NCBI GenBank assembly: GCA_025359665.1
Contig: JANYFU010000359.1
Coordinates: 1 to 34,365 of the forward strand
Direction: 5' to 3'
Source: Caulobacteraceae bacterium
Lineage (GTDB): Bacteria > Pseudomonadota > Alphaproteobacteria > Caulobacterales > Caulobacteraceae
DNA: 34,365 nt
Below the pieces are notes generated by a model, which had not been told where the DNA came from, did no database searches, and worked only from the letters and a program-made list of their open reading frames with translations. Below are positions 31,939 through 33,502 of the stretch, one piece after another. The translations under genes were made by a program, and so were the position numbers. Position 1 is the stretch's first letter; each line of letters opens with the position of its first letter.

Positions 31939-32886
31939 ATGGAGTCTCGTCGGCGATTGCCGCCTCTCAACGCACTCAGGGCCTTCGAATCGGCGGCCCG
32001 CCACCTGAATTTCAGCCGCGCGGCCGATGAGCTTTCGGTGACACCGGGCGCCGTCTCGCAGCAGATTCAGAACCTCGAAGACTATGTCGGCGCGTCGCTT
32101 TTCAAGCGCACGTCCCGTGGCCTGCTGCTGACCGACTCGGCCCAGACCGCCCTGCCCGCCCTGCGCGAGGCGTTCGACCGGCTGGCCGAGGCAGCCTCGC
32201 TTCTTACCGCCGCGGTGGACGGCCGGCGCCTGACCATCACCGCCCCGCCCTCGTTCGCCGCCAAGTGGCTGGTGCCTCGGCTTGGTGGCTTCGAGGCGGC
32301 CTATCCGCAGGTGGATGTGTGGATGTCGGCCGATATCGCCCTCGTGGACTTCGCCTCGACCGACGTCGATCTGGCCATCCGCTATGGCGCCGGACCCTAT
32401 CCAGGGCTGGAAGTCATCCGGCTGATGGGCGAATCGGTGCTGCCGGTGATGAGCCCGGAATTGATGGAGGCCAGCCCGGTCAATGAGCCATCGGACCTGG
32501 CCGGCCATGTTTTGCTGCACGACGGTTCGCCCGTGGCCGACGAGAGCTGCCCCGACTGGGTGATGTGGCTGGCCGCCCGTGGCATCCGCGGTTTCGACGC
32601 CAGCCGGGGACCGCGCTTCAACCAGTCGAACCTGGTCATCGAGGCGGCGGTGGCCGGCCGCGGCGTGGCGCTGGCCAAGCGCGCGCTGGCCCAGGACGAC
32701 CTGGACAGCGGCCGGCTGGTCGCGCCGATGGGCATCGGGACGTCGGTGGACTTCGCGTACTATGTGGTCCACCCGAAGGCCAAGGGCCGCCTGACCCAGG
32801 TCAAGGCCTTCGTCGGCTGGATCAAGACCGAGGCCGCCGCCCATGACGTGGCCCTGGAAACGATGGACAACGGCGCGGGAATTTAG
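31939..32886 (+). CDS. LysR-family transcriptional regulator (GcvA-like)
   Basis: A 315-residue LTTR. The N-terminal winged helix-turn-helix is clear: LPPLNALRAFESAARHLNFSRAADELSVTPGAVSQQIQNLEDYVGASLFKR. The substrate-binding domain follows (LTITAPPSFAAKWLVPRLGGFEAAYPQVDVWM, FASTDVDLAIRYGAGPYPGLEVIRL, NQSNLVIEAAVAGRGVALAKR) in the GcvA style, not the CysB style. It diverges from cobA with an inverted repeat in between, so it may regulate the sulfate-reduction operon; the effector is unknown. ATG 31939 with CCAGGAAAA upstream is preferred over the track start 31879, whose extra residues overlap the operator. Confidence 0.88.
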   Translation: MESRRRLPPLNALRAFESAARHLNFSRAADELSVTPGAVSQQIQNLEDYVGASLFKRTSRGLLLTDSAQTALPALREAFDRLAEAASLLTAAVDGRRLTITAPPSFAAKWLVPRLGGFEAAYPQVDVWMSADIALVDFASTDVDLAIRYGAGPYPGLEVIRLMGESVLPVMSPELMEASPVNEPSDLAGHVLLHDGSPVADESCPDWVMWLAARGIRGFDASRGPRFNQSNLVIEAAVAGRGVALAKRALAQDDLDSGRLVAPMGIGTSVDFAYYVVHPKAKGRLTQVKAFVGWIKTEAAAHDVALETMDNGAGI

Positions 32887-32954
32887 CGTCGAACCACCGT
32901 TAATGACCGTTAAATACGGTTAGAGTCGTCGCAAATGCGAAGATTCGGAGCCGT

Positions 32955-33107
32955 GTGGGTTCGGGCGTCGCGGGGGCGACCTCTGGGCGCGCCGGGGGCG
33001 CTGGAAGGGCGCTGACGGGGCGCTGGAAGGGCGCTGACGGGGCGGTTCGTGGGAGCACCAAGGGCGTTCGCGGGGCGCTTCCCGGGAGGTCCTCGGCGCT
33101 CCATCGG
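32955..33107. repeat. Degenerate 11-bp periodic repeat array with phased G-runs
   Basis: About 14 consecutive units can be laid out, nearly all 11 bp long and following CG-N6-GGG. Examples are CGTCGCGGGGG, CGACCTCTGGG, CGCGCCGGGGG, CGCTGGAAGGG, CGCTGACGGGG (these last two repeated exactly as a pair), CGGTTCGTGGG, CGTTCGCGGGG and CGCTTCCCGGG. One late unit is 10 bp. The repeat is not a multiple of three, so it is not a coding repeat. Confidence 0.8.
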
Positions 33108-33351
33108 ATCACGGCGTCAACATTACCTATTGTAATATCTATATTTTCAACAGTCTGATGGTTGGCGCCGCGTCTTGGGACGATGCCGATGCGGTCGGCT
33201 ACCTGGGCGCGTCGAGCGATCGCCGGCATTCGCGCGGCGACACAAGAGAGCTTCACAACGAGAAAGATCGAAGACGATCGGTAGTTTGCATTATGAAATT
33301 GCCGATGTCAAGCGACGCGGTGGCGCCGAGCCGTCGGCTGATGATCCCTAC

Positions 33352-33426: not shown

Positions 33427-33502
<76 letters not shown>

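Follow-up and report, generated by a model that had tools for sequence, protein, structure and literature searches.

A phased 11-bp array beside tRNA-Lys in a freshwater Caulobacteraceae genus: probable wrapping site of a TerS-like protein encoded by a small mobile element

Introduction

What keeps a series of short G-runs in step at 11 bp in the spacer between a lysR-type gene and a tRNA-Lys gene of a Caulobacteraceae bacterium? The window, by which the whole stretch of 34,365 nucleotides analysed here is meant, is G000:C609, one of the 634 contigs of the 4.5-Mb genome G000. The initial annotation of the locus considered a phased array bound by a nucleoid-associated or structural protein, G-quadruplexes and an old minisatellite. 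The reading favoured here, to which we assign a probability of roughly 0.6, is that the array forms the terminal part of a small TerS-encoding mobile element and is the cognate, pac-like site wrapped by the element's own TerS ring.

A periodic array within an insertion

The 11-bp periodic G-run array that had been annotated was confirmed. Twelve exact GGG[AC]G units follow one another in an unbroken series of 11-bp steps at 32963-33094, while the longest chain of units in 2000 dinucleotide shuffles of positions 32955-33107 was 3, which rules out chance G-richness. Over the same interval the periodicity at lags 11, 22, 33 and 44 was 0.565 versus 0.346 +/- 0.020 in shuffled sequences (z 10.7), and the spectral best period of the array was 11.05. 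The duplicated pair CGCTGGAAGGG/CGCTGACGGGG is present at 32999-33042 as claimed, and the description of a phase that is kept over divergent sequence between the anchors was borne out. The count of about 14 units was somewhat generous: 11-12 are good, and the remaining 2-3, at both outer ends, are degenerate. The annotation had also named two observations that would speak against the array, namely no excess over shuffled sequence and a period that relatives do not conserve; the first is answered by the chain of 12 against a maximum of 3, and the second by congeners, which carry arrays of the same period.

The spacer from lysR to tRNA-Lys is ~540 bp long in the window and ~95-100 bp in the congeners G070 (L358), G076 (L359) and G105 (L361), which have kept the empty site of ~100 bp. 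Hence, the array sits within an insertion of ~440 bp. The parts of the insertion and its flanks are the following.

31939-32886, plus strand: lysR-type gene, host flank; 14 of 16 congeners have a single-copy orthologue.
32890-33345 (ends approximate), unstranded: whole inserted element, a decayed ORF-less copy of the TerS-array element, delimited by comparing the lysR-tRNA-Lys spacer with congeners.
32893-32923, plus strand: distal-end motif ACCACCGTTAATGACCGTTAAATACGGTTAG, common to many copies in several genomes and placed to the left of the arrays in L013, L016, L066, L069, L071, L291, L292 and L293.
32963-33094, minus strand: 12 core sites in phase at a period of 11 bp, core CKCCC; the intact TerS-like genes L319, L320, L326 and L332 either end in an array of the same core or are followed by one.
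33120-33150, unstranded: AT-rich stretch adjoining the array, seen also in other ORF-less copies by flank comparison.
33250-33270, plus strand: internal motif GCTTCACAACGAGAAAGATCG, common to other ORF-less copies; TTCACAATGTGAAAGA in L013, L016, L069 and L070.
33285-33311, minus strand, toward the array: degenerate promoter end, TTGAC ... CATAATGCAAA, matching the promoter ends of terS genes, both solitary and prophage ones.
33427-33502, plus strand: tRNA-Lys(CTT), host flank.

The window copy has lost its gene and retains the array and the two ends. The minus strand of its array, which is C-rich, is the one equivalent to the coding strand of the TerS-like gene that was lost, and the spacing of TTGAC ... 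CATAATGCAAA is shorter than in intact copies. CtrA sites were considered within the distal-end motif and dropped, their spacing being inconsistent (6 or 7). At another locus, L306 (G100:C320, ~332-495), a remnant array of TGGCGG units (CCGCC on the other strand) is followed by a promoter-like end and, shortly beyond it, by a tRNA-like sequence, a placement that recalls the near-tRNA position in the window.

The intact element and its TerS-like gene

Intact copies are ~600-700 bp long and consist of a promoter, a solitary TerS-like gene and an array of ~9-13 cores directly downstream. Their small protein is encoded opposite the G-rich strand by a gene that abuts the array; the G-rich strand is usually also the coding strand of the host gene ending just before the array. 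The PHROGs terminase small subunit (PHROG 11494) was matched by 18 of 18 aligned members, of which 4 also matched Pfam Terminase_2, weakly, and a profile of the TerS-like proteins found the small terminase of Pam5 (PDB 21di, E 5e-18). By sequence similarity the protein is thus a member of the TerS family. A reading as ParR-type 11-bp iterons was dropped after the TerS gene was found. Phage homologues, for example phiLM21 TerS, adjoin terL and portal genes. No terL lies beside the examined array-bearing copies, which neighbour trpS, CoA-transferase, amidase, band-7, ferritin-like and toxin-antitoxin genes; TerL is present at L355, a true prophage copy. The viral collection gave no match in a first scan with the TerS-like protein and 12 homologous phage loci in a profile search, and none of these 12 carries an array.

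Within the genus the gene reaches up to 12 copies per genome, and dN/dS between copies is 0.16-0.50. Such purifying selection on solitary genes would also fit a protein that had lost its role in packaging and used the array as an autoregulatory or chromatin-like platform for controlling or silencing its neighbours, and the retention of arrays by ORF-less copies would agree with that. However, the array is placed downstream of the gene, away from the promoter, and the neighbouring genes are heterogeneous, so that we regard a regulatory platform as unlikely.

In most intact copies the promoter consists of TTGAC followed by an AT-rich palindrome of the TTGCA/TGCAA type, an arrangement that is found also at the prophage terS genes of the genus. 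A blind search of G000 with the promoter pattern returned 3 matches: a known array element, the terS gene of a prophage and an ORF-less element that had not been suspected. The last of them, at L372:1500-1950 (G000:C305), is a copy of the GGCC/TGCC subfamily with its own array and was detected only via the promoter pattern. The promoter that is common to resident prophage terS genes, together with the frequency of toxin-antitoxin families among the neighbours, could be taken to mean phage interference, with solitary TerS and array serving as a decoy by which the terminase of an infecting phage is titrated or poisoned. By itself, such interference explains neither the phased array nor the dispersal of the element, and we hold it to be quite unlikely.

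Genes of toxin-antitoxin type often adjoin the array elements (window:33847-34359, L013, L016, L017, L069, L070, L321, L327 and L299), and the families seen near arrays are PIN, Phd/ParE, MqsRA, HipBA, AbiEii, Gp49 and HigA-like. Of the 9 ParE copies in G000, 2 lie within ~0.7 kb of an array, where ~0.1 would be expected within 2 kb (an estimate). Beside an array in L287 (G046:C48), at 726-2984, a reverse transcriptase gene is followed by a formylglycine-generating-enzyme-like gene, a pair that possibly represents a diversity-generating retroelement, the reverse transcriptase domain being the one part checked.

Subfamilies keep the helical phase and change the core

Related arrays are built on other cores: CCGCC (L308, L321, L323, L328), GCGCC (L314, L329), CTGCC (L327, L343, L344) and GGCC or TGCC (L309, L325, L330, L338). 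They start right after the 3' end of the TerS-like gene or overlap it. When any 5-mer repeating at 10/11-bp steps was admitted as a core and each gene was compared with 60 shuffles, a downstream array unmatched in the shuffles was found for 18 of the 25 TerS genes that have no confirmed terL beside them, the 25 including L339 and L349, either of which may be prophage. Four of the 18 belong to the subfamily of the window. In the same test, none of the 21 TerS genes of phages or prophages had a downstream array, and the upstream regions of TerS genes never had one.

Apart from their steps of 10 and 11 bp, these arrays conserve next to nothing. Core distances, counted model-free over 6-16 bp and pooled, fell at 10 bp (n=35), 11 bp (n=52) and 12 bp (n=6), with none at 13 bp, and the spectral best periods of six arrays of other subfamilies were 10.35-10.90. 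The subfamily of the window deviates slightly, its spacing being nearly always 11 and not 10.5 bp. The spacing of the cores is helical phasing, and the form in which the array is bound is likely duplex DNA. The proposal of a phased protein-binding array is therefore the best supported of the initial suggestions, since arrays with other cores keep the 10/11-bp steps; in place of its structural or nucleoid protein, the TerS-like protein of the element is the better candidate.

Selection on the cores was apparent in pairs of copies, where cores are 90-100% identical and linkers 47-83%; in ORF-less copies the figures are 90-100% versus 47-72%. ORF-less copies are among the pairs, as is L299/L304, which appears to be orthologous; apparent core conservation is inflated in the subfamily of the window, which was found by its core pattern, and the other subfamilies, found through the gene, are free of this bias. 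On the TerS tree the core label requires 10 changes (minimum possible 8) versus 20.0 after shuffling, with 0 of 200 shuffles as low, and a supported branch splits solitary from prophage TerS genes. Gene and array travel together and linked inheritance alone yields clustering, so that the co-phylogeny of core and TerS fits recognition and falls short of proof of contact.

The G-quadruplex idea fails, because conserved GGG tracts are confined to the subfamily of the window and the sister cores GGCC, CTGCC and GCGCC are without G-runs. An old minisatellite is rejected as well. It would have near-identical units at a fixed period, as do the true minisatellites caught by the same pattern; here the linkers diverge while the cores are kept, 10- and 11-bp spacings are mixed, arrays are duplicated in full together with the gene, and ORF-less copies keep their array. 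The same observations bear on a neutral repeat made by tandem duplication, or on a repeat that merely encodes a Pro/Ala-rich protein tail. A coding origin would be suggested by L319, L320, L326 and L332, where the ORF continues through the array, but a stop codon precedes the array in most other subfamilies and the mixed 10/11 spacing breaks any reading frame. A coding repeat was discarded, as read-through is limited to one subfamily, with partial overlap in two further genes, and coding and neutral repeats together are extremely improbable. The earlier remark that the period is not codon-based thus holds for most subfamilies and needs amending for that of the window, whose intact ORF reads through the array.

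A reading at the level of RNA is a Rho-dependent terminator, in which the sense RNA beyond the 3' end of the TerS-like gene, being rich in C, would be a rut site shielding host genes from the element. The array comes immediately behind the stop codon and is convergent with the host gene, the sense C/G ratio is 1.7-4.1 in the subfamily of the window, and the C clusters recur every ~11 nt, which resembles the rut model of C>G with a C every 11-13 nt over 78 nt (PMC6407284). An excess of C and unstructured RNA were found in the CKCCC and CTGCC subfamilies. In the GGCC-core arrays, however, C/G is 1.0-1.1 and the RNA folds strongly (MFE -56 to -63 kcal/mol over 101-125 nt), a structure that Rho avoids; the rut character is therefore not the shared property, and the GGCC subfamilies rule it out as the common function. 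Moreover, Rho needs no uniform subfamily-specific cores, whereas the array has sequence-specific ones that are retained in ORF-less copies, and the 10/11 spacing indicates duplex DNA. Rho-dependent termination is accordingly very unlikely.

Distribution and dispersal

A four-core pattern, with one mismatch allowed, gave 89 matches in G000, where the reversed control gave 6. The matches fall at 13 array loci, nearly all of which have 11-13 units. Among 149 genomes of the family, abundant matches were confined to the genus of the window (G000, G046, G070, G076 and G090). When genome and viral collections were scanned with the array pattern, the matches listed were L120 (Umea_bin-04329, an uncultured Caulobacteraceae), which carries the array of G076, and otherwise ordinary tandem repeats with near-identical units. 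The element is found in one uncultured freshwater genus of the Caulobacteraceae. Four Pseudonocardia contigs (L110, L115, L173 and L176) contain a different, 22-bp repeat with alternating GGGCGACTCGC units.

Dispersal is seen most directly in G070, where the copies L343 and L344 are 92% identical over 696 bp and have unrelated flanks; their match begins inside the array and stops just past the promoter. Further copies of this genome match at ~81% over 609-631 bp, and several copies sit at contig ends, as repeats do. Terminal inverted repeats consistent among three copies were not found, and the ends of the element are uncertain. No terL, integrase or transposase is present within the element, and packaging and movement would therefore need helpers in trans.

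Discussion

Recognition of packaging sites by TerS has long been debated among wrapping, threading and interdigitation, the natural sites being short and their binding in vitro weak (PMC9611059, PMC11331095). Published TerS rings have 8-12 protomers with the N-terminal domains outside (PMC11331095, PMC9611059). Wrapping is still favoured over threading for some of them (PMC11331095, PMC9611059, PMC7672466), although HK97 TerS binds DNA within its channel (PMC11331095), which counts against the wrapping reading.

In the solitary element, the array is probably the site wrapped by the element's own ring-shaped protein. Judging from its homologues, the TerS-like protein would form a ring of outward-facing N-terminal helix-turn-helix domains. 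Each domain would bind one core, all on the same face of the DNA, and ~110-135 bp would wrap the ring; with one core per protomer, the ~9-13 cores would fit such wrapping. Several diverged TerS proteins, each beside its own phased array of ~9-13 sites, are what the wrapping model predicts. With less certainty, the complex might recruit a large terminase subunit from a phage or gene transfer agent resident in the host, and DNA around the element might thereby be packaged and spread.

The closest parallel is a phage pac or cos site with its TerS, as in both cases a TerS-type HTH protein is encoded beside its presumed recognition DNA. In phages pac can sit in or beside terS (PMC9611059), and lambda cosB has three repeated TerS sites (PMC4856287). 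The element differs in its ~9-13 strictly phased sites, an array seen at none of the 21 homologous phage or prophage genes, and in having no adjacent portal, phage genes or large terminase, the last of which a phage packaging module has beside terS. With phage-inducible chromosomal islands and TerS-encoding satellites it shares a chromosomal location and a TerS that might redirect packaging, but it has one gene in ~0.6-0.7 kb and many copies per genome, and no integrase, replication, capsid or regulatory genes, which are features of islands, were seen in the ~0.7-kb duplicated one-ORF unit. Like MITEs and other small interspersed repeats, it is short, intergenic and dispersed in multiple copies, many of them gene-less, with clean empty sites; unlike them, its intact copies encode a conserved protein, and no consistent terminal inverted repeats were seen in three copies. 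We know of no transposase partner of the element. In the open-access literature no paper on solitary terminase small subunits with phased arrays was found, which is weak evidence of absence.

The wider possibility, which we put forward tentatively and rate somewhat below even odds, is that of a minimal packaging parasite: a cassette of one TerS gene and a wrapped pac-like array that is present in many chromosomal copies, directs a phage or gene transfer agent motor to host DNA, and evolves new gene-site specificities in its subfamilies. If the packaging part is true, the element would be smaller than any packaging satellite known to us, and it would provide a route for mobilising host DNA in this freshwater lineage.
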